This document shows, piece after piece, positions 3,556 to 18,622 of a stretch of 24,635 nt of DNA (position 1 is the stretch's first letter; each line of letters starts with the position of its first letter). The stretch comes from a virus. Position numbers and translations under genes: made by a program. The notes under the pieces were generated by a model that had not been told where the DNA came from, ran no database searches, and saw nothing but the letters and a program-made list of their open reading frames with translations. The stretch covers positions 1 through 24,635 of IMG/VR virus record IMGVR_UViG_3300009551_000116. One strand, given 5' to 3'.

Positions 3556-4983
3556 TTGGACGATCAGGAAGTGCGCCGCGAGCTTGCCCAGTCGTTGTGG
3601 AAGGTTCGTGGTGTTCGTTCGCTGATTGAGTTTATCCCGATCGTAACGCCCTGGTATGGGGCGCCAATGCTTCATTTAGTCCCGCTTGCCGAACTCTTTT
3701 GGCGGGCGGGATGTGGCCAACGAATTCGCGCTCTGTCGTCAACGCCTCCACAGCATGGCAAGACGACGAGCATGCTGCACTGGATCGTCGCCTATCTTAG
3801 GGCGTTCCCGTGGCACAACGTCGCCTATGTTTCGTATGAAGCCGGCATCGCTTGGTCGAAGTCGCGCGAGGCCAGGGAGATTGCCGCCCGTGCAGGGTTG
3901 GACATCAAGCGCGGCTCCAACTCGGTAGGCGAGTGGAAGACATCCGACGGCGGCGGGTTCATCGCGACGTCAATCGGCGGCCCGCTGACGAGCAAGCGCG
4001 TTGATTTCTTGGTTGTCGACGATCCGCATAAGGACCGCGTGAGCGCGGAAAGTTCCACCTATCAGCAGCGCGCATACGAATGGTTTTCCGGCGTCGCCAT
4101 GGCGCGTCTTACGAAGGATGCGTCGGCCATCGTTAATATGGCCCGCTGGGCGCAGGGCGATCTAATTGGACGCCTACTCGATAATCGCAAAGTTGACTGG
4201 AAGGTGGTCAACCTCAAGGCGATCGAAGTCGTCGACGGCCAAGAGCGAGCGCTATGGGAAGCGCAAAAGCCGCTCAAGTTCCTTCGCGAGCAACGCGACT
4301 CGGGTCTAATCCACCCGTATGACTGGGCGGCGCTATACGAGGGTAATCCTCAGCCCCGCGGTGGCGCGCTATTTGGCGAGCCGGCGCGTTACGACGTTAT
4401 CCCGATGGACGCGAACAACGTCAAAGGATGGCGGTTCGCGATTGCGTGTGACCCGGCAGCAACGGCAAAGGACAGCGCGGACCATAGCGCGATTGTGGTC
4501 GTGGGCGCGACGGGAGACGGCGCCGATCAAAAGGTCTACGTGTTAGACGTTTGGCGCGGCCAGGTCGAGATTCCGGCCCTCGTCGAGAAGCTGAGGCAAG
4601 CACAGGCACGTTGGCGTTGTCCGGTGTGGATTGAGGCAGTTGGCGGGTTCAAGGCTGTCCCGCAAATGCTACGCGAAGTCGGCGCGGCATCTCGAGACAA
4701 AGGAACCGAGCAACTGCGCGTGTGCGAGGTGAACGGGCGCGGTGACAAGTTCACCCGAGCGCTCCCGGTTTCGGCTGCTTGGGGCGACGGTCGCGTGCTG
4801 GTTCCCCGCAACGAAGATGAGCACCCGTGGGTTCGCGACTTCCTAACCGAGGTCAAGCGGTTTACCGGCAAAGGCGACGCTCAAGACGACCAGGTTGACG
4901 CACTAGCACATGCCTTTGACGCCGTTGATCGTCGGGTGAACGCGATTGAACGCGGCGTCAGACGTGTGCCGGGTTCGTTCTAG
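3556..4983 (+). CDS. terL: Terminase large subunit
   Basis: Encodes 475 residues, a normal length. The ATPase domain shows a Walker A-type loop STPPQHGKTT at residues 62-71 and a Walker B strand DFLVVDD at 150-156. The C-terminal nuclease domain (RNase H-like fold) shows FAIACDPAAT with D299, then VWIEAVGG with E360, and DDQVDALAHAFDA with D444/D448, the usual acidic triad positions. The enzyme uses ATP to drive DNA into the procapsid and cuts the concatemer. The start is a TTG at 3556: it is the first start codon after an in-frame stop at 3541 and follows GGTGAT. It is flanked by the putative small subunit and the portal, the standard packaging order. Confidence 0.95.
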   Translation: MDDQEVRRELAQSLWKVRGVRSLIEFIPIVTPWYGAPMLHLVPLAELFWRAGCGQRIRALSSTPPQHGKTTSMLHWIVAYLRAFPWHNVAYVSYEAGIAWSKSREAREIAARAGLDIKRGSNSVGEWKTSDGGGFIATSIGGPLTSKRVDFLVVDDPHKDRVSAESSTYQQRAYEWFSGVAMARLTKDASAIVNMARWAQGDLIGRLLDNRKVDWKVVNLKAIEVVDGQERALWEAQKPLKFLREQRDSGLIHPYDWAALYEGNPQPRGGALFGEPARYDVIPMDANNVKGWRFAIACDPAATAKDSADHSAIVVVGATGDGADQKVYVLDVWRGQVEIPALVEKLRQAQARWRCPVWIEAVGGFKAVPQMLREVGAASRDKGTEQLRVCEVNGRGDKFTRALPVSAAWGDGRVLVPRNEDEHPWVRDFLTEVKRFTGKGDAQDDQVDALAHAFDAVDRRVNAIERGVRRVPGSF

Positions 4984-5144: not shown

Positions 5145-7304
5145 TTGATCGATTACAAGACGCTCTCGACTACTCGCCACCGCGCGTACGACGGCGACTA
5201 CTGGTGCAAGATTCGCATTCTTTACGAGGGCGCCAAGACGCTGAAAGATGCGTTGGCCACGTCGTCGAAGGTGCGTACCGAGATCTTCCCGCAGCATCTC
5301 GGCGAGGAGCCTGACGTCTACGCGGAGCGGATCAAGCGCTCCTGCTATGTCAACTACCTGTCGCAGTTGGTTGACTACATCATTAGCGTGCTTTTCTCGG
5401 ACCCGGTCAAGGTTACGGCCGGTGGCGACGGTGAAGATCTAAAACCGGGCTCGGTTGCGCCGTTCTACGAGGACTTTTATCGCAACACAGCGCAGCCTGG
5501 GTCGCGCCCGGTTACGTTTAACGAGGCGTTGCGCCGAGTGGCGCTCGACGCGCTGTTGTTTAAGCGTGCATGGCTCCTGGTCGAGTTTCCGAAGAAGCCG
5601 ACCGACGCCGACGGCAATCCGATTGCACCTGCCAGCCGTTATGACGAGGAGCAACTAGAGGCTGGCGGGCAATACAAACGCGCCTATTGCTGCTCGGTCG
5701 ATCCTGAGTGCGTCTATGACTGGGAACGCGCCGAAGACGGCGAGTTGGCGTGGGCGCTGATTCACGACAAGGACTACCCGCGGCCGACTGTTGACGCCAA
5801 ACGCACCACGTGCGTTGAAACATTCACAGTGTACGACCGTAGCACTTGGACGCGCTACGTCTGGGAGTACGACGAGGAAAAGAGCGTCCCCAAGGACACT
5901 GACAAGCCGACGCGAGTGGAGTCGGGCCCGCACAACTTTGGCCGGGTGCCGTTGCTTGATTTCACGATCCCCGATGGCCTCTGGGCTGGCGGCAAGATGG
6001 AAAACATCGCCGTCGAACTGTTCAATAAGCTGTCGGCGCTGTCGTGGGGACAATATCGGTCGCTGTTTCAGGTTATCGCCGTCACACTGCAAGACGCTGA
6101 CCCCAAGAACGGGTTTAGCCCGATCGCGGAAGACCAGAACCGCGCGATCAACCAGACGCTTGGCCCTGGGCGTGTGTGGGTGGGCGCCGAACGCGACCAG
6201 ATTCGATACATCGGGCCTGACTCTGCACCGTTTGCCGAGGCGCGTGCTTATCTCGCTGAATTGCGCGATGAGATGCACCGTGTCCTGCACCAGATGGCGC
6301 AATCGGTCGACAACTCGGGAGCTGCGCTCAAGCGGTCGGGCGAATCGAAGAAGATGGACCGGGCGGCGGGCGCGATTGTGTCGCGCGAGCTTGGTCGCCT
6401 GTTTCGCGAGATTACCGTTGCGATTTACCAGACGATCGCGGCGGGTCGCAACGAACGCGATAAGGTGTGGTCGGTCTCTGGGCTCGAAAGCTACGACGAG
6501 CAGAGCCCGATGGACGTTATCACTGAGGCCGTGCAACTCGAAAATGTGAACATTCCGTCGCCGACTTGGCAGACGATCCATCGGCACAACCTGGCGATCA
6601 AGCTGACGCCAGGCTTGACCGACGAGCAGCGCGACAAGGTTTACGAGGAAATCCAAAACACGCTAGCGTCAACCGCAGCGGCCAAGAGTCCCGACGAACA
6701 ACGCGGCATCGTGCAGGCAACCGCGGCGGCGCATCAAGCGGGTATCATCTCCAGGCAGACCGCGACGCAACACCTCGCGAATATGTTCGGCGTGAAGGAT
6801 GTGGGAGTCGAGCACGCGAAGATCGACGCCGAAGCCGACGCGGCCATGAACCGCGAAGGCGCAAGCCTAATGGGGGGCAAGTCCGGCGACGCTGGGGACA
6901 TGGACGACGGCGCCGAAGGCACAGAAGCCGTTGACGCCGTGTACCAGCAACTCGCCGATGACTTCGAGCCCAAAGCGATCGAGTGGGTGCATGAGGTCGA
7001 TTGGGAAGGCCCGACCGATGTGCCGCTTGAAGAAATCGACTTCTCGGGTCAAGACGCGTGGGCAGCGTCGAAACATGAGGCGAAAGTCAATAAGTTCGCC
7101 AAGAAGATCAGCGACGGGTTCAAGAAGCCGGCGATCCTGGTCAAGGGTCCCGATGGCGGCAAGTATCGCGTGGCTGACGGGCATCATCGTGCGCTGGCCT
7201 ACAAGCAACTGAATAAGCCGGTGCGTGCGTACATCGCGACCGTGGACAAGGACGGATTTGCGGCTGCGATGGAGATGCATTCTAGCCAGAAGGTCCAAAG
7301 CTAA
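5145..7304 (+). CDS. Portal protein with C-terminal ParB-like domain
   Basis: Encodes 719 residues. The first 550 or so look like a portal of the DUF4055/SPP1-gp6-like type: YVNYLSQLVDYIISVLFSDPV near residues 66-88, a long middle clip/stem region (ENIAVELFNKLSALSWGQYR), and helices with GAALKRSGESKKMDRAAGAI near 390-415. The portal ring sits at one capsid vertex and is the channel for DNA. After an acidic linker (about 565-600) comes an extra domain with PAILVKGPDGGKYRVADGHH and RALAYKQLNKPVRAYI; the DGHHR at about 678-682 is the hallmark of ParB/sulfiredoxin-like nuclease folds. The start is a TTG after AGGGAG with good spacing; no ATG is available. The MuF-like gene follows 12 bases later. 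The portal call is strong; the activity of the added domain is unknown. Confidence 0.85.
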   Translation: MIDYKTLSTTRHRAYDGDYWCKIRILYEGAKTLKDALATSSKVRTEIFPQHLGEEPDVYAERIKRSCYVNYLSQLVDYIISVLFSDPVKVTAGGDGEDLKPGSVAPFYEDFYRNTAQPGSRPVTFNEALRRVALDALLFKRAWLLVEFPKKPTDADGNPIAPASRYDEEQLEAGGQYKRAYCCSVDPECVYDWERAEDGELAWALIHDKDYPRPTVDAKRTTCVETFTVYDRSTWTRYVWEYDEEKSVPKDTDKPTRVESGPHNFGRVPLLDFTIPDGLWAGGKMENIAVELFNKLSALSWGQYRSLFQVIAVTLQDADPKNGFSPIAEDQNRAINQTLGPGRVWVGAERDQIRYIGPDSAPFAEARAYLAELRDEMHRVLHQMAQSVDNSGAALKRSGESKKMDRAAGAIVSRELGRLFREITVAIYQTIAAGRNERDKVWSVSGLESYDEQSPMDVITEAVQLENVNIPSPTWQTIHRHNLAIKLTPGLTDEQRDKVYEEIQNTLASTAAAKSPDEQRGIVQATAAAHQAGIISRQTATQHLANMFGVKDVGVEHAKIDAEADAAMNREGASLMGGKSGDAGDMDDGAEGTEAVDAVYQQLADDFEPKAIEWVHEVDWEGPTDVPLEEIDFSGQDAWAASKHEAKVNKFAKKISDGFKKPAILVKGPDGGKYRVADGHHRALAYKQLNKPVRAYIATVDKDGFAAAMEMHSSQKVQS

Positions 7305-7316
7305 GCACGGCCGGCC

Positions 7317-8153
7317 ATGAAGAAGAACGCCGCGCTAGCTGCCTTCCTGCTTCGTCGTCACGCCGAGGTCAAACGAGTCAAGCGGCGCCATGTGCGGCAA
7401 GCGGTTGCGAAGATTCGACCCCATCGGGACGGCTTGGTTACGATGCTGGAGCGCTGGGCGATTGACGGCAAGCTGAACAACGCCAATTCACACGCGGCTC
7501 GCACGTGGGCGATCATGACCGCGGCGGCGCTGGGCCTCATTGCCCGTGAATCAGTTGCTAGTGCATCCAGGGAGACGTCGCAACTCGCCGGCAATCACCT
7601 GACGCGGCTGTCTCGCATCGTCGAACGAGAATTTGATGCGGCTCCACTGGGGCATACCGAACGCGGTTATGAGGCGTCGCCCGAGCACCTGGCCGCGTTG
7701 CAAGCTAACTTCGTAGGCACTACAAGGACCGGCACGTACTCGCGACTGCTCAAGGTGGCCGGCGCAGTTGTTCTTGGCTTGGCGCTCGACGAGTTCGCCG
7801 AGTCACTGGATAGCAAGGACAGCAACGAAGATATAGCTAGCGCGTTGTTAGCTCCGATTGAATCGCGCACCGAGTTGTACATCGTCACCGAGTCCGGCAT
7901 CGCTTACAACCGGGCGCTACATGCCGACGTCGTTGGGCTCGGTTATATGAAGCGCTGGGACACCGAAGGTCACGGTTGCCAGAAGATTTGCACACCCGCC
8001 GACGGTCAGATTCGCCCGATGGGTGAGAACTTCGACATGGGCGACGGTGGCACGACTGGCTTCCCGCCGGCTCATCCGCGGTGTGACTGCTCTTGGATTC
8101 CATGGCGACGCGAGTGGATGAGCGCCGCCGAGTTTGACGACCTAGCCGCATAA
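7317..8153 (+). CDS. Head morphogenesis protein, MuF/SPP1 gp7-like
   Basis: Encodes 278 residues. The C-terminal third carries the MuF pattern: IESRTELYIVTESGIAYNRA, then a cysteine pair (GCQKICTPADGQIRP) and PPAHPRCDCSW with a second cysteine pair. In Mu gpF and SPP1 gp7 this region accompanies minor head proteins that bind the portal and are packaged in the capsid. The N-terminal half is basic and helical with an alanine-rich segment. It follows the portal directly, as is usual. The ribosome site is weak, so translation may be coupled to the portal gene. No toxin-type extension is seen after the MuF region, unlike many Firmicutes relatives; here the extra nuclease-like domain is on the portal instead. 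Confidence 0.85.
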   Translation: MKKNAALAAFLLRRHAEVKRVKRRHVRQAVAKIRPHRDGLVTMLERWAIDGKLNNANSHAARTWAIMTAAALGLIARESVASASRETSQLAGNHLTRLSRIVEREFDAAPLGHTERGYEASPEHLAALQANFVGTTRTGTYSRLLKVAGAVVLGLALDEFAESLDSKDSNEDIASALLAPIESRTELYIVTESGIAYNRALHADVVGLGYMKRWDTEGHGCQKICTPADGQIRPMGENFDMGDGGTTGFPPAHPRCDCSWIPWRREWMSAAEFDDLAA

Positions 8154-8211: not shown

Positions 8212-8970
8212 ATGGCAAACGAGCAGAATCCTCCGAATAACGCCCCGCCCGCTACTGAGACGACCGCGGAACCCGCTACACCAAAGTTTATGACCGCAGA
8301 AGACTTCAACGGCGCCATGACGGCCCGCGATCGTCGGCTCCAACAGCAGCTTGCCAAGCAGTTCGAGGAGTTCCAGAAGACGCTGTCTGCGCGCTTCATG
8401 CAGGCTCCCGCGGCTCCGGTTGACGGTGGCGACGATGGCGAAGGCGTTGCTTCTACTCCAGCCACGCAGCCGGCGATTACGCAGAGTGAGCAGCCGTCGA
8501 AGGAAGTCCTTAAGCTCAAAGACGAAGTTGCGCGCATCAAGAAAGAGCGTCAGCGGGAGCGCGAGGAAATCGAGCGCGAGCGTCAAGCGCGGCTCGTCGA
8601 TGATGCGAATACTCGCGTCCAAGCCGCGTTGTCCGAGGCTGGCTCGTCTGGTCCGCATGCTCGCGCCGCATGGGCGCTTTTGAGCGCGGAGGGGCGCATT
8701 AAGCGCAATGAGCAGGGCGAGGTCTGTATCGAGTTGCCCCGTACCTATCTTGGCAAGACCGAGCCCGAGCTTGTGCCGCTCAAGGAAGCGATCCCCGAGT
8801 GGTTGAATTCGGACAGTGGCAAACTTTTCATGCCGCCGCGTGGTGGCGGCGAAGGTTCGGGCACCGTTGTGCGTGGTAGTGCTCCGCGTACTGGCGCGCC
8901 GCTGTCCAAAGAAGAAGCAAAGCGTGAAGCGCAGAAGGCGCTGACCAGTTTCGTTCTTGGCGGGCGATAG
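8212..8970 (+). CDS. Capsid scaffolding protein
   Basis: Encodes 252 residues, strongly hydrophilic with no globular core visible. It opens with a Pro/Ala/Thr-rich segment (MANEQNPPNNAPPATETTAE), has a central coiled coil at about 97-142 (EVLKLKDEVARIKKERQRE and a run of Glu/Arg) and a basic, glycine-rich end (EEAKREAQKALTSFVLGGR). This composition and the place directly before the major capsid gene are characteristic of phage scaffolds, which guide capsid assembly and are then removed. No protease motif is visible here or in neighbours, so release without cleavage, or cleavage by a protein outside the window, is likely. A strong AGGGAAGGGAA ribosome site precedes the ATG. Confidence 0.82.
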   Translation: MANEQNPPNNAPPATETTAEPATPKFMTAEDFNGAMTARDRRLQQQLAKQFEEFQKTLSARFMQAPAAPVDGGDDGEGVASTPATQPAITQSEQPSKEVLKLKDEVARIKKERQREREEIERERQARLVDDANTRVQAALSEAGSSGPHARAAWALLSAEGRIKRNEQGEVCIELPRTYLGKTEPELVPLKEAIPEWLNSDSGKLFMPPRGGGEGSGTVVRGSAPRTGAPLSKEEAKREAQKALTSFVLGGR

Positions 8971-9052: not shown

Positions 9053-9120
9053 ATGAGGCTGCACGCCCGGCGCGGCGTATAGGCGCAATGCAACCAAGAG
9101 AAACCAGGAGAAAGCCTCAT
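9053..9120 (+). promoter_or_regulatory. Inverted repeat that includes the capsid start codon
   Basis: ATGAGGCT at 9053-9060 is the exact reverse complement of AGCCTCAT at 9113-9120, and the second arm contains the first two bases of the major capsid ATG (9119-9121). Pairing would close a 52-base loop that holds the CCAGGAG ribosome site and place the start codon in a stem. This is a candidate control of capsid translation; effect not shown. Confidence 0.4.
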
Positions 9121-10189
9121 GTCGTCTATTGCCTTGTCGGATATTACCTCAGCGCTTGCGACGCTGTTCGAAGATCAGCTCGTCGCCCAGTGGAACCGCG
9201 CCGTCGTTCTTACCAAACTCCTCCCCGTCGTGCAGGGCAATTCGCAGAACATCAACTGGGACATCAAGGGTACCGATGGCTCGGTCGCCCATGGCTCGTC
9301 GATGATCTCCGAAGGTGGCACCGTGACGACCTTCAGCGATGACGCGCTGAACAAAGCTACGCTGTCGTTTTGCAACTATTACGATGCGTTCGGTGTCTCG
9401 GGTCTCGCGCTGAACGCGGCCCGCGCTACCGGCAACCCGGCCGCCCTCGCTGACCTGTTCGGCGAGAAGATGATGGACAGTGTTACGCGCCTCGCCAAGA
9501 ACCTGAACCAAGAATGGTACCTTGGCACCGGCGCGAGTAACCACATTGCCGGCCTCGTGGATGCCACTAACGGCGCTCTCAAGGCGTCGGGCACCTACGC
9601 CGGCATCGACAAGAGTTCGGTCACCCTCTTCCAGGGTAACGAGCTTACCAATGGCGGCAGCGCGCGTCCGGTCAGCTTCCAGTTGATGCGCGACGTGATC
9701 CGCTCGGTCTACGTCGCCTCGGGCGAGACTCCGGATCTGATTGTGTGCGACCCGATCCAGTTCGCTCGCTACGGCATGCTGTTCGGCGATCAGCGCCGCT
9801 ACCTCGCCGAGATGAGCACCGCTGGCGGTAACTACAAGTTGGACGGTGGTTTCAAGGCGCTCGAGTTTGATGGCATCCCCGTCGTTCAGGACAAGGACGC
9901 CAGTGCGGGTCAAATGCTGTTCTTGAACACGAATCATGTGCGTGTTCAGCAGCTTCCTGATTACCTGGCGGCTGCCGGTCAGCCGGGCGCGGTTGGTAAG
10001 GCCGCCATGGTCAAGTTGTCGGGCACTCCTGAGACACAGATGGGCGCGGGTACTACCTCGCTGCAGGCGCGCCTCTTGCCGCTGGCGATCGTCGGCGATA
10101 ACTACACCTTTGAGTTGATCATCTACCCGCAGCTCCAGGTCCGTCGTCCGAACGCTTGCGCGATGCTCGGCGATCTGGTCTCGGCGTAA
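9119..10189 (+). CDS. Major capsid protein, HK97-fold type
   Basis: Encodes 356 residues, a typical length for an uncleaved HK97-fold major capsid protein. It starts MSSIALSDITSALATLFEDQ, has LVAQWNRAVVLTKLLPVV and NINWDIKGTDGS typical of the N-arm and E-loop area, a P-domain-like stretch with LMRDVIRSVYVASGETPDLI and CDPIQFARYG, then GFKALEFDGIPVVQDKDA and a beta-rich end (FELIIYPQLQVRRP). The phrase where the protein states its target residue range, then the short 'FDGIPVVQD' strand, is a recurrent pattern in these capsid proteins. Position supports it: right after a scaffold-like gene, with a strong CCAGGAG ribosome site and the largest leader of the region. No delta-domain propeptide is visible. 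Confidence 0.9.
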   Translation: MSSIALSDITSALATLFEDQLVAQWNRAVVLTKLLPVVQGNSQNINWDIKGTDGSVAHGSSMISEGGTVTTFSDDALNKATLSFCNYYDAFGVSGLALNAARATGNPAALADLFGEKMMDSVTRLAKNLNQEWYLGTGASNHIAGLVDATNGALKASGTYAGIDKSSVTLFQGNELTNGGSARPVSFQLMRDVIRSVYVASGETPDLIVCDPIQFARYGMLFGDQRRYLAEMSTAGGNYKLDGGFKALEFDGIPVVQDKDASAGQMLFLNTNHVRVQQLPDYLAAAGQPGAVGKAAMVKLSGTPETQMGAGTTSLQARLLPLAIVGDNYTFELIIYPQLQVRRPNACAMLGDLVSA

Positions 10190-11016: not shown

Positions 11017-11427
11017 GTGGCACTCACCGACGCGCAAAAGGACTCCGTTCGGCAGTATGTCGGATGGACCTTTCGCTTTCGCCAAACCGATAGTCAACTG
11101 GAGTTGGCGTTGAACGCGGTTGATTTGGACGCCACCGTCCAGACGACGGTTATCGCTATGCTGGCGGCTCTGGCGAACATCGACGCGGCGATCTTGGATG
11201 CGTATTCGCGCATCAAGGCTAAAGCGCTCGTCGGCGAGATCGAACTGATGGAATCACAGGAGATCGCGATCCTGCGCAGCGAGGGCCGCCGTAACGTCGG
11301 GCGTCTCGCTGGCTATCTCGGCGTGCCGGTCAAGCAGGATGTGTATTCCAGTGCGTTGCCGACGCACTTCGCTGGATACGCTGGGCCCTATGGTGGTACC
11401 GGCGGTAACTTGCCGAGGCTCGGATAA
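11017..11427 (+). CDS. Putative head-tail connector protein
   Basis: Encodes 136 residues from a GTG at 11017, preceded by GGAAAAG. It is mostly helical: ALTDAQKDSVRQYVGWTF, a middle of short helices (ATVQTTVIAMLAALANID) and ILRSEGRRNVGRLAGYLGVP near residues 87-106, a phrase like those in phage head-tail adaptor proteins (HK97 gp6-like group), which bind below the portal and link head to tail. The C-terminal 20 residues are glycine-rich and flexible. The gene lies between capsid and neck genes and its stop overlaps the next ATG (TAATG), in agreement with the call. Family membership is by eye only. Confidence 0.6.
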   Translation: MALTDAQKDSVRQYVGWTFRFRQTDSQLELALNAVDLDATVQTTVIAMLAALANIDAAILDAYSRIKAKALVGEIELMESQEIAILRSEGRRNVGRLAGYLGVPVKQDVYSSALPTHFAGYAGPYGGTGGNLPRLG

Positions 11428-12044
11428 TGGCTCGTATCTTCAAAGTGCCCGTGCAACAGTTCGTGACCAATCCGACGCTTACCAGCGTTACCCCCACCGG
11501 CGGATCGGCCACGACTTGGACATACAAAATCGTCGGAGTGGATGCCAGCGGCGGGACCACAGCGGCTAGCGCTGGCGTGTCTACGGCAGCCGGCGCCGCT
11601 ACGCTCGACGGTACGCATTTCAATACCCTTGCCTGGACCGATCCGGCTAACGCGGTGTCGATCAAGATTTATCGCACCGCTGCCGGCGGGACTCCGAATA
11701 CGACTGGCTTGATTGGCACCGTTGCCGCTGGCGTGCAGACATTCGTTGATAGTGGGTTAGCCGGTGACGGCTCTACCGCGCCCGCGGCAAACACGACTGG
11801 CATCGGGGCAGCGGTCGAATGCGCGTCGCTTCGAGATAAGAGCGTGCAGATTGACGGCACATTCAGTTCGACTAATCAGATTTTCGGCTCCATCGATGGC
11901 ACCAATTGGCAGGGCGAGGGATCGTCTGGGTCTACCAAGACCGTCGTGAATATTACGACATCATGGGTGTTTGTTCGCAATCAGCAGACCGCATTTACCA
12001 GCGGCGTTCCGACTATTACTCTTTGTGGACATGAAGAGAGGTAA
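11427..12044 (+). CDS. Two-domain virion protein: FN3-like module plus beta-sandwich
   Basis: Encodes 205 residues. Residues about 15-130 form an FN3-like beta sandwich: TWTYKIVGVDASGGTTAAS, then GAATLDGTHFNTLAW, VSIKIYRTAAGGTPNTTG and FVDSGLAGDG. The same residue pattern reappears as an insertion in the tail sheath (about 14250-14570). The remaining about 75 residues (VQIDGTFSSTNQIFGSI, TSWVFVRNQQ, TITLCGHEER) form a second beta-rich unit resembling the small protein at 10202-10543. FN3/Ig-like modules on virion proteins are thought to help weak attachment to cell-surface sugars; the C-terminal unit probably anchors it to the particle. I infer a head or neck decoration protein. Start overlaps the previous stop. 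Confidence 0.75.
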   Translation: MARIFKVPVQQFVTNPTLTSVTPTGGSATTWTYKIVGVDASGGTTAASAGVSTAAGAATLDGTHFNTLAWTDPANAVSIKIYRTAAGGTPNTTGLIGTVAAGVQTFVDSGLAGDGSTAPAANTTGIGAAVECASLRDKSVQIDGTFSSTNQIFGSIDGTNWQGEGSSGSTKTVVNITTSWVFVRNQQTAFTSGVPTITLCGHEER

Positions 12045-16803: not shown

Positions 16804-16934
16804 CCATCGCCTTCCTGATGCGTCACGGCGGGCAACAGAAGTCCGAGATCGAATCGTGGTCGATCGATGAACTGTGGCGCTATCACGAGTTGATTTGGGA
16901 TCTCGTCGAGAAAGAATGGAAGGCTAGGGGATAA
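16761..16934 (+). CDS. Tail assembly chaperone frameshift extension (gpT-like)
   Basis: This is the -1 frame read after the slip: the short form up to SPL is joined to GTSRDGQEADGVEVAIAFLM, then a helical tail with SWSIDELWRYHELIWDLVEKE and WKARG, giving a fusion of about 194 residues. In lambda-type systems gpGT is the form that binds the tape measure. The extension has no good start codon or ribosome site of its own: the ATG at 16818 lies in a poor context, and the frame overlaps the short form by 43 bases after the slip. Its stop overlaps the tape-measure ATG (TAATG). Such coupling and the acidic, Trp-rich helical end match known extensions. Confidence 0.78.
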   Translation, partial: GTSRDGQEADGVEVAIAFLMRHGGQQKSEIESWSIDELWRYHELIWDLVEKEWKARG

Positions 16935-18622
16935 TGGCGGACACCGTCTACCGGATCCGGGTCGACTGGACCGCCAATACCAGCGAAGCCGAACGCGGGG
17001 CCGAGCGTGTCTCGTCGGGATTCAGGGGCGTCGCCGCCGCCGTTACTGGTGCTGCGGCTGCCCTTGGCGTCTCGGGTCTCGCGCGCCAAATCTTCGAGAT
17101 CGGCAAGCAGACCGAAGACCTCAAAATATCCATGGCCGGCATGTTCCAGGCGTTCGGTGCCGCCGGGCTGACCAATAGCGCCGATGATTTTAATAAGTCC
17201 ATGGGGCTGTCTAGTGCCATCTTCGAGAAGATGCGCGTTGACGCCCGTGAACTGCCCGGCGAGCTTGAAGACCTGACCAATATTTTTCGCATGGCCATCG
17301 GCGGCGGCATGGATGCGGGCAAGAGCATCAACGACATTGAACGCCTGAGCGCCAAAATGATGGCGTTCGGTGCAATGGAAACGCTCCCGTCACAGCAGAC
17401 CGCCCGCGAATTCGCGATGATGATGGAGGGGAGGACCGGGACGCATAACGTCCTCTTCCAGCGCCTCCATACGCAGATCGGCATGACCGCAAAGGAGTTC
17501 AACGCACTCACGGCTGCCGACAAGTGGAAGACCATCGAAAACGCACTCAAGGGTTACGAGCCGGCGATCAAGGAATTCGGCAAATCGTGGAGCGCTGTCT
17601 CGTCGACTACGGTCGATATCGTCAAGAACCTAATCCGAATCGGCGGATTGCCTATCTTTGATACCGTCAAGCGCCACCTGTCAGACTGGAATGACTGGTT
17701 CGAAAAAAACCAAGCCTACGTCGACAAAATCGCTACCGAATGGGGCGAGAAACTGGCGAGCGGGCTCGAGACGGCATTCGGCTACGCCAAATCGCTCGTC
17801 GAGGTCATTGTCAACAACCGTGACACACTGCTAAAGATCGCCGAAGCCTACGTCGCCTTCAAGGGCGTGTCCGCGTTCGGTGGTGGCGGCAGGGGAGTTG
17901 GCAACACGCTCGGAAACATGGTCGGTGGCGCTGGTATGGGCGTCGCGATCTCGGCGATGTTCGGTGACATCACGCAGACTGGCGGCACACTTAACGCGAC
18001 CATGATGGGCGTCGAAGGTGCCATGTCGCGTTTGCCGGGCGTCATCGGTGACGTGTCCACGGCTCTTTTAGTATTCCATGCGGCGCTGCAGTATGGCGCC
18101 GATGAGGTGGATAAGGCGCATAAGCGGGACATCGACAAAGAGACCGAAACGGCTCGGTTGATGTCCGCCTATAAGGCGTTTGAGTTTAACGGTCAGCGCC
18201 AGTCTTCGTTTGAAGCAACCGATGCGCGCACGGCTCTCCTAATCATGAAGGAGAACCGTCTTCTCACTGCTGACGGTAAGATCGACAACGCACGGTTTGC
18301 TGCCTATATCGGCGCGCGTACGAACGTTGATTTAGCTGGGGCCGCCGCCGCTCGCAGGACGTTTGAGGCTGCCGCTCGCTTTCACCCGGAGAGCAACGTC
18401 CCGTTCGGCCCCGCGATGCCTACGCCCGAGCAACTGGCGCTCAATCGCAGCATGCCGGCGCGTAATACCAACGTCAATATCACGAATAACAACAGCATCG
18501 TTCAGACGATCGAAAACGCCAACGATCCCGACCGCGTGCTCGTCAAGACGCGCGAGGCGCTAGAGTCGATCTACCGTCATCCACAAGTGAGTCCGTATAA
18601 CCGTCTCGCGACCATCCGGTAA
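16934..18622 (+). CDS. Tail tape measure protein
   Basis: Encodes 562 residues. The N-terminus has a beta strand (YRIRVDWTANTSEAERGAE), then a hydrophobic alanine-rich stretch (about 33-50), followed by long helices. A glycine-rich hydrophobic region lies at about 314-345 (GVGNTLGNMVGGAGMGVAIS). The C-terminus has VNITNNNSIVQTIENANDP and then DRVLVKTREALESIYR, a shape often seen at tape-measure ends that contact the baseplate hub. The protein sets tail length; using about 0.15 nm per residue, 562 residues suggest a tail near 80 nm, a short one for a myovirus. The gene starts at the chaperone stop and ends overlapping the hub start. Confidence 0.86.
   Translation: MADTVYRIRVDWTANTSEAERGAERVSSGFRGVAAAVTGAAAALGVSGLARQIFEIGKQTEDLKISMAGMFQAFGAAGLTNSADDFNKSMGLSSAIFEKMRVDARELPGELEDLTNIFRMAIGGGMDAGKSINDIERLSAKMMAFGAMETLPSQQTAREFAMMMEGRTGTHNVLFQRLHTQIGMTAKEFNALTAADKWKTIENALKGYEPAIKEFGKSWSAVSSTTVDIVKNLIRIGGLPIFDTVKRHLSDWNDWFEKNQAYVDKIATEWGEKLASGLETAFGYAKSLVEVIVNNRDTLLKIAEAYVAFKGVSAFGGGGRGVGNTLGNMVGGAGMGVAISAMFGDITQTGGTLNATMMGVEGAMSRLPGVIGDVSTALLVFHAALQYGADEVDKAHKRDIDKETETARLMSAYKAFEFNGQRQSSFEATDARTALLIMKENRLLTADGKIDNARFAAYIGARTNVDLAGAAAARRTFEAAARFHPESNVPFGPAMPTPEQLALNRSMPARNTNVNITNNNSIVQTIENANDPDRVLVKTREALESIYRHPQVSPYNRLATIR

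Follow-up and report, generated by a model that had tools for sequence, protein, structure and literature searches.

The viral DNA that we analyzed (hereafter the window) comes from a soil phage and covers positions 1 to 24,635 of the IMG/VR record IMGVR_UViG_3300009551_000116. We found that its portal protein continues into a C-terminal domain that is modeled, with high confidence, with the ParB/sulfiredoxin fold. Similar domains with a conserved DGHHR motif are fused to several types of phage portals and have been exchanged between them. Our preferred interpretation, which we consider about an even bet (a probability of roughly 0.5), is that this is a mobile, probably catalytic, NTP-dependent enzyme of the DGHHR class, attached to portals as a module of the phages' effector arsenal, and that it performs phosphotransfer or NTP hydrolysis rather than acting as a dedicated DNase.

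The fusion is encoded by an open frame of 719 codons (5145-7304), and the encoded protein has 719 amino acids (Table 1). This agrees with the sequence-only reading of this DNA, which had described a continuous portal frame and had placed VADGHHR at about residues 676-682; these are exactly the residues of the motif. The frame starts at TTG. Two observations support this start: the homolog in another contig (L009) begins with ATG at the equivalent residue, and a GGGAG lies shortly before the TTG. The gene order (terminase, portal, MuF, capsid) is as expected for a phage portal. The MuF-like protein is separate, begins 12 bases past the stop codon of the fusion, and has no such tail, as had also been read from the sequence. 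The next gene, probably for a scaffolding protein, has no significant profile match. (Further along, downstream of the tail sheath gene, the window encodes a 562-amino-acid protein at 16934-18622 that has no match in PHROG or NCBIfam.)

Table 1. The portal fusion and neighboring genes in the window.
Feature	Positions	Strand	Evidence
Terminase large subunit (gene before portal)	3556..4983	+	phrog_38 E=9.5e-75; Terminase_6C E=6.2e-15
Portal part of fusion, residues 1-515	5145..6689	+	phrog_145 (residues 9-515, profile search) E=8e-25; solved portals E=3.4e-12
Linker, residues 516-592	6690..6920	+	pLDDT <50 over residues 511-592; ~60 residues shorter in L009
ParB/sulfiredoxin-fold domain, residues 593-719	6921..7301	+	pLDDT 95.2, pTM 0.88; VIA Z; phrog_1033 'ParB-like' (last 127 residues) E=8.8e-8
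VADGHHR, predicted nucleotide/metal-binding motif, residues 676-682	7170..7190	+	translation
Separate MuF-like head protein, no effector tail	7317..8153	+	phrog_3517 head morphogenesis E=1.6e-5
Probable scaffolding protein (position only)	8212..8970	+	homologs in same place in L004, L005, L009
Major capsid protein	9119..10189	+	phrog_9953 E=4.3e-20

Judging from its profile matches, residues 1-515 are a phage portal protein of the phrog_145 or SPP1 type. The SPP1_portal profile scores 25.4 bits on the fusion (the cut-off is 25.5), and a model of the full-length protein matches solved portals, including that of cyanophage A-1(L). At a pLDDT of 58, this model is too poor to show where the domain sits with respect to the crown of the portal. 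A ParB/sulfiredoxin-type domain is covalently joined to the portal, as had been proposed.

The fusion is real. In L002 and L003, 14 of 2157 bases are different from the window's, and the frame is continuous. L009 has the same continuous frame, with a portal that is 79% identical and a domain that is 62% identical to the window's. Since these three contigs carry the same frame, we exclude a frameshift or an assembly artifact. The same portal-linker-domain layout is found in L163, L137, and L139, whose portals are only about 27% identical to the window's; L163 also speaks against a sequencing error or frameshift that separates portal and domain. Within the domain, pS is 0.755 and pN is 0.249 between the window and L009 (dS is saturated), which indicates purifying selection. 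We also considered a nested gene that would start at residue 586 of the window's protein, the conserved methionine of MDDGA(E/A)G. We rejected this because the methionine is missing from most members and because L009 and L163 have no clear ribosome site there.

The domain model was built from 32 sequences, and the order of its elements is that of the ParB/sulfiredoxin fold. As is characteristic of that alpha+beta superfamily, the motif lies where the helix after the third strand begins. The closest fold is sulfiredoxin (6ky4; VIA Z = 9.4 over 87 residues, rmsd 2.3), followed by PadC and Noc (both 8.7), ParB-CDP (8.5), and SerK (6.7). Structure prediction, which had been suggested as a check, thus gave the fold that had been read from the sequence, but in a longer domain: about 125 residues, including the first two helices, rather than the last 110 codons. 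No Pfam ParB family matches the window's domain, even at E up to 10, so surveys based on Pfam would miss it. It is not a canonical ParB/RepB partition protein either: the protein ends with the fold, with no helix-turn-helix after it, and models for partition proteins score far below their cut-offs (20.7 versus 58.45 bits for TIGR00180 and 22.2 versus 201.5 bits for TIGR03454).

In a sequence-profile search against solved structures, the only relatives found were SerK (E=1.5e-5) and SbnI (E=8e-4). In these proteins, a ParB fold binds nucleotide for the phosphorylation of serine (PMC12704722). Also, the origin of the label "ParB is a nuclease" is disputed (PMC3482391). Because of these two points, we favor an NTP-dependent enzyme, either a phosphotransferase or an NTPase, over a nuclease. 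The resemblance to SerK is incomplete. The NCBIfam model for SerK scores 18.3 bits (the cut-off is 380), and the second domain of SerK and SbnI is absent from the window's protein. A glutamate in the window's domain aligns with the catalytic Glu30 of SerK, but L009 has a lysine there, most members have their acidic residue one column away, and Glu30 has no invariant counterpart in the family.

The sequence-only reading had raised the idea of a nuclease or DNA-binding ring, which would cut, bind, or remodel DNA at the portal or be delivered with the genome. DNase activities have been reported for some members of the ParB superfamily (reviewed in PMC5512222), and in the Tox-ParB toxin domains a conserved DGHHR has been predicted to bind metal (PMC3482391). 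But nothing here points to a nuclease over NTP binding or phosphotransfer: besides the disputed label, the only solved relatives found by sequence profile are small-molecule kinases, and both the lack of a helix-turn-helix and the low scores of the partition and RepB models argue against this idea. Furthermore, a nuclease that is not regulated would put the phage's own genome at risk if it sat beside the packaged DNA. We consider this explanation improbable.

How conserved is the motif? In the initial set its invariance was circular, as the motif itself had been used to find those loci. As an independent test, we used members that were collected with a different pattern (GPWDExHxxQ) and scored with a hidden Markov model that was masked at DGHHR. 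All 49 of the members with the region present keep DGHH, so it is likely, from this conservation, that the motif forms a catalytic or ligand site. In 45 of the 49 the motif is DGHHR, and in the other four (L198, L209, L224, and L227) it is DGHHH. These four variants are what might be expected of a structural or degenerate decoration with no catalytic role, but the motif is otherwise kept in all members and the domain is under purifying selection. Decoration seems to us the least probable of the explanations. Alternatively, since DGHHR is present in the Tox-ParB domains of polymorphic toxins (PMC3482391), the domain could be a lysogen-type toxin that is delivered to competing cells, as has been put forward for MuF toxins (PMC5576092). 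There is no candidate immunity gene directly after the fusion in the window, where the MuF gene follows almost at once, and a virulent or temperate lifestyle cannot be read from the window's fragment. A toxin of this kind is very unlikely, in our opinion.

We surveyed the spread of the domain in an arbitrary part of the IMG/VR viral contigs, with open reading frames counted from stop to stop. Members came from three scans (the VADGHHR motif, a profile-derived scan, and the independent GPWDExHxxQ pattern) and had to score at least 75 bits. This gave at least 68 non-redundant members. Such a survey had been proposed with the original reading; among the matches listed that have an intact 5' end, 41 of 55 are fused to portals. 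(Forty of these were called as portals by HMMs built for this analysis, and L235 was called by phrog_146.) The portals among the matches listed are of at least five types: phrog_145, HK97-like, Mu, phrog_64, and phrog_146. Pfam and PHROGs independently support many of the calls: Phage_portal (PF04860) in L019, L036, L070, L088, L130, L143, L144, and L145; Portal_Mu in L154 (E=1.8e-50); phrog_64 in L151; and phrog_145 in L137, L139, and L163. The portal-ParB fusion is widespread and is not peculiar to the window's phage. In L221 and L097/L165, the fusion seems to be split. (In L097/L165, the domain is in another frame just past a phrog_145 portal, so that the fusion is either split or frameshifted.) The non-portal members among the matches listed are either small proteins that stand alone or very large ones; among the latter, L157 carries a rifampin-type ADP-ribosyltransferase (ART) domain.

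With a consensus query, no record of this subfamily was found in cultured phages and plasmids at E<=1e-3, and with the window's domain alone, the only hit there was a ParB-like protein from a Rhizobium phage (E=9e-3). A genome scan gave only archaeal, low-scoring hits among the matches listed (500 candidate stretches).

Many of the portal fusions have companion domains. NUDIX domains are present in at least 17 intact portal fusions and 2H domains in at least two, and many of the chains also include MuF. The order of the companions varies (ParB-NUDIX, NUDIX-ParB, ParB-2H, and 2H-ParB), as does the distance from the portal to the domain, with a linker or other domains between. The window's fusion has no NUDIX, 2H, or ART domain beside the ParB-like domain. 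Portals with both a ParB-like and a 2H phosphoesterase (2'-5' RNA ligase-like) domain include L130:2961-6878 and L208:1295-4792, and their 2H domains might be related to anti-signaling enzymes.

Several unusual architectures turned up in the survey. L138:39-5387 encodes a portal-MuF-NUDIX-ParB chain of 1783 amino acids whose portal is interrupted by an intein-like segment (CYSSDTEILT...WCGNT) with a weak match to LAGLIDADG_3. In L241:8394-12308, an intein also seems to interrupt the MuF part of a ParB-NUDIX fusion (it ends in ...GIIAHN before CRC). Finally, a second and more distant family of DGHHR domains (VPPLVLVHRHGVYQVADGHHRA) is embedded in very large phage proteins in L015, L016, L032, L074, L114, and others, and L168 has both families in one chain.

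The domain is accessory: L004 and L005, whose portals are about 45% identical to the window's, end at 552-575 residues without it. It has also moved independently of the portal. Between the window and L163, the portals are 27% identical and the domains are 68% identical, versus 79% and 62% between the window and L009. The window's domain is nearer to L163 than to L009 with a bootstrap of only 0.84, but the contrast of 27% to 68% in these alignments holds regardless. In a tree of the domain, L009 and L163 form a pair with the window outside (support 96/83). This contradicts the relationships of the portals, so exchange of the domain between phages is needed. The tree is poorly resolved overall and is compatible with either a single origin or multiple origins on portals. 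Separately, an Ig-like repeat protein in the window (11427-12044) is 62% identical to the gene directly after the portal-ParB gene of L163, unlike the core genes of the two phages, which are only about 27-31% alike. This link is not evidently tied to the ParB/sulfiredoxin domain, and we set it aside.

The spread and exchange of the domain bear on the main rival explanation, namely that it senses nucleotides and serves as a switch in the packaging machine. Such a switch would bind NTP at the portal and regulate terminase docking, DNA retention, or ejection, with no action on the host. The domain is joined to a portal far more often than to anything else (the 41 of 55 among the matches listed), and ParB folds act as CTP switches (PMC12704722). 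The window also has a separate MuF gene without an effector, and this gene, rather than an obvious immunity gene, comes next after the fusion. On the other hand, the close relatives L004 and L005 package DNA without the domain. The exchange of the domain among portals that are very different, and the varying distance at which it sits from them, would also be odd for a tightly coupled part of the packaging machine. Overall, we think that a packaging switch is unlikely, although less so than a nuclease.

Instead, we favor a module of the virion-carried effector arsenal. A portal ring has twelve copies. In known portals, the C-terminal part makes up the crown, which lies within the capsid, so the domain should project into the capsid interior. 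As many as twelve copies would be located beside the DNA exit, each on a flexible linker beyond the C-terminal end of the portal, and they would presumably face the packaged DNA. The domain is then most likely one module of the known arsenal, along with NUDIX, 2H, ART, and MuF, and would act early in infection, on nucleotides, small molecules, or host or defense components, by phosphotransfer or NTP hydrolysis. Because many unrelated phages have this domain on their portals, and because it moves between portals, it is probably not a one-off but a weapon or helper that recurs in virions.

There are several caveats for the effector interpretation. First, a domain that is held by the portal could not be injected unless it were cut off, and we identified no cleavage site. 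Second, most members are on portals and not on MuF alone, which is more plausibly ejected; this would also fit a role in packaging. Third, the window's fusion lacks the companion domains, and its likeness to SerK stops short of an invariant Glu30 and the second domain.

A bolder version of this proposal, which we hold only tentatively and think is less likely than not, is that the portals of many unrelated tailed phages are themselves enzymes. Each would carry a swappable ring of ParB/SerK-like phosphotransferases, with at most 12 copies in the capsid, as an anti-defense or takeover device in the virion or at the genome exit, and the family, which Pfam does not recognize, would have been missed. 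If the domain is active, then portals, which are usually seen as passive DNA channels, would commonly serve as the mount for an enzyme that travels in the particle. The roughly 40 fusions on five portal types (among the matches listed), several with NUDIX or 2H partners, are material for asking whether portal-borne enzymes counter bacterial defenses that rely on nucleotide signals or regulate packaging.

How does the fusion compare to known systems? Among solved folds, sulfiredoxin is the closest, but its motif has a catalytic cysteine before the His-Arg, where the window's domain has a histidine. The CTPases ParB, Noc, and PadC share the fold, while the window's domain has DGHHR and lacks the helix-turn-helix and any Pfam ParB match. 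A survey of the ParB-CTPase fold from December 2025 (PMC12704722) does not refer to portals in its main text. SerK and SbnI are the best matches by sequence profile, and SerK shares DGHHR, with the differences described above. The Tox-ParB domains have a ParB fold with a conserved DGHHR, as in the window; their listed carriers are the T2SS, T5SS, T6SS, T7SS, and PVC delivery systems, and neither MuF nor portals are listed there (PMC3482391). In place of an adjacent immunity gene and a toxin-delivery N-terminus, the window has a MuF gene and a portal.

Among head proteins, Microbacterium phages have portal-MuF fusions (PMC7302621), which are likewise portals with an extra C-terminal head module. 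That layout is also present in L036, L088, and others, and no ParB domain on a portal is described in that paper. The DdrB-like ParB domains of phage P1 (PMC5512222) are, by their description, also ParB/sulfiredoxin domains of a head-packaged phage protein, but they are in a large polyvalent protein instead of a portal. The sequence-only reading had suspected that a portal with a ParB-like domain was undescribed. This stands for the combination itself, which we did not find in the open-access papers that we searched, but not for effector domains on portals in general. PBECR and 2H domains on portal and MuF head proteins were already known (PMC5512222), and NUDIX, 2H, and ART domains on portal and MuF proteins have been described as head-packaged effectors, with NUDIX and 2H interpreted as packaged into heads and injected (PMC9503650 and PMC5512222). 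No ParB domain fused to a portal is reported in the passages of those two papers that our search found. So, the fusion is of a known kind, while the portal-ParB combination is new to the open literature that we searched and is broad in its spread. Like the known portal and MuF effectors, it places an enzyme-type domain on a head protein, with NUDIX, 2H, and MuF as companions in the window's relatives, and this domain family is mainly on portals.
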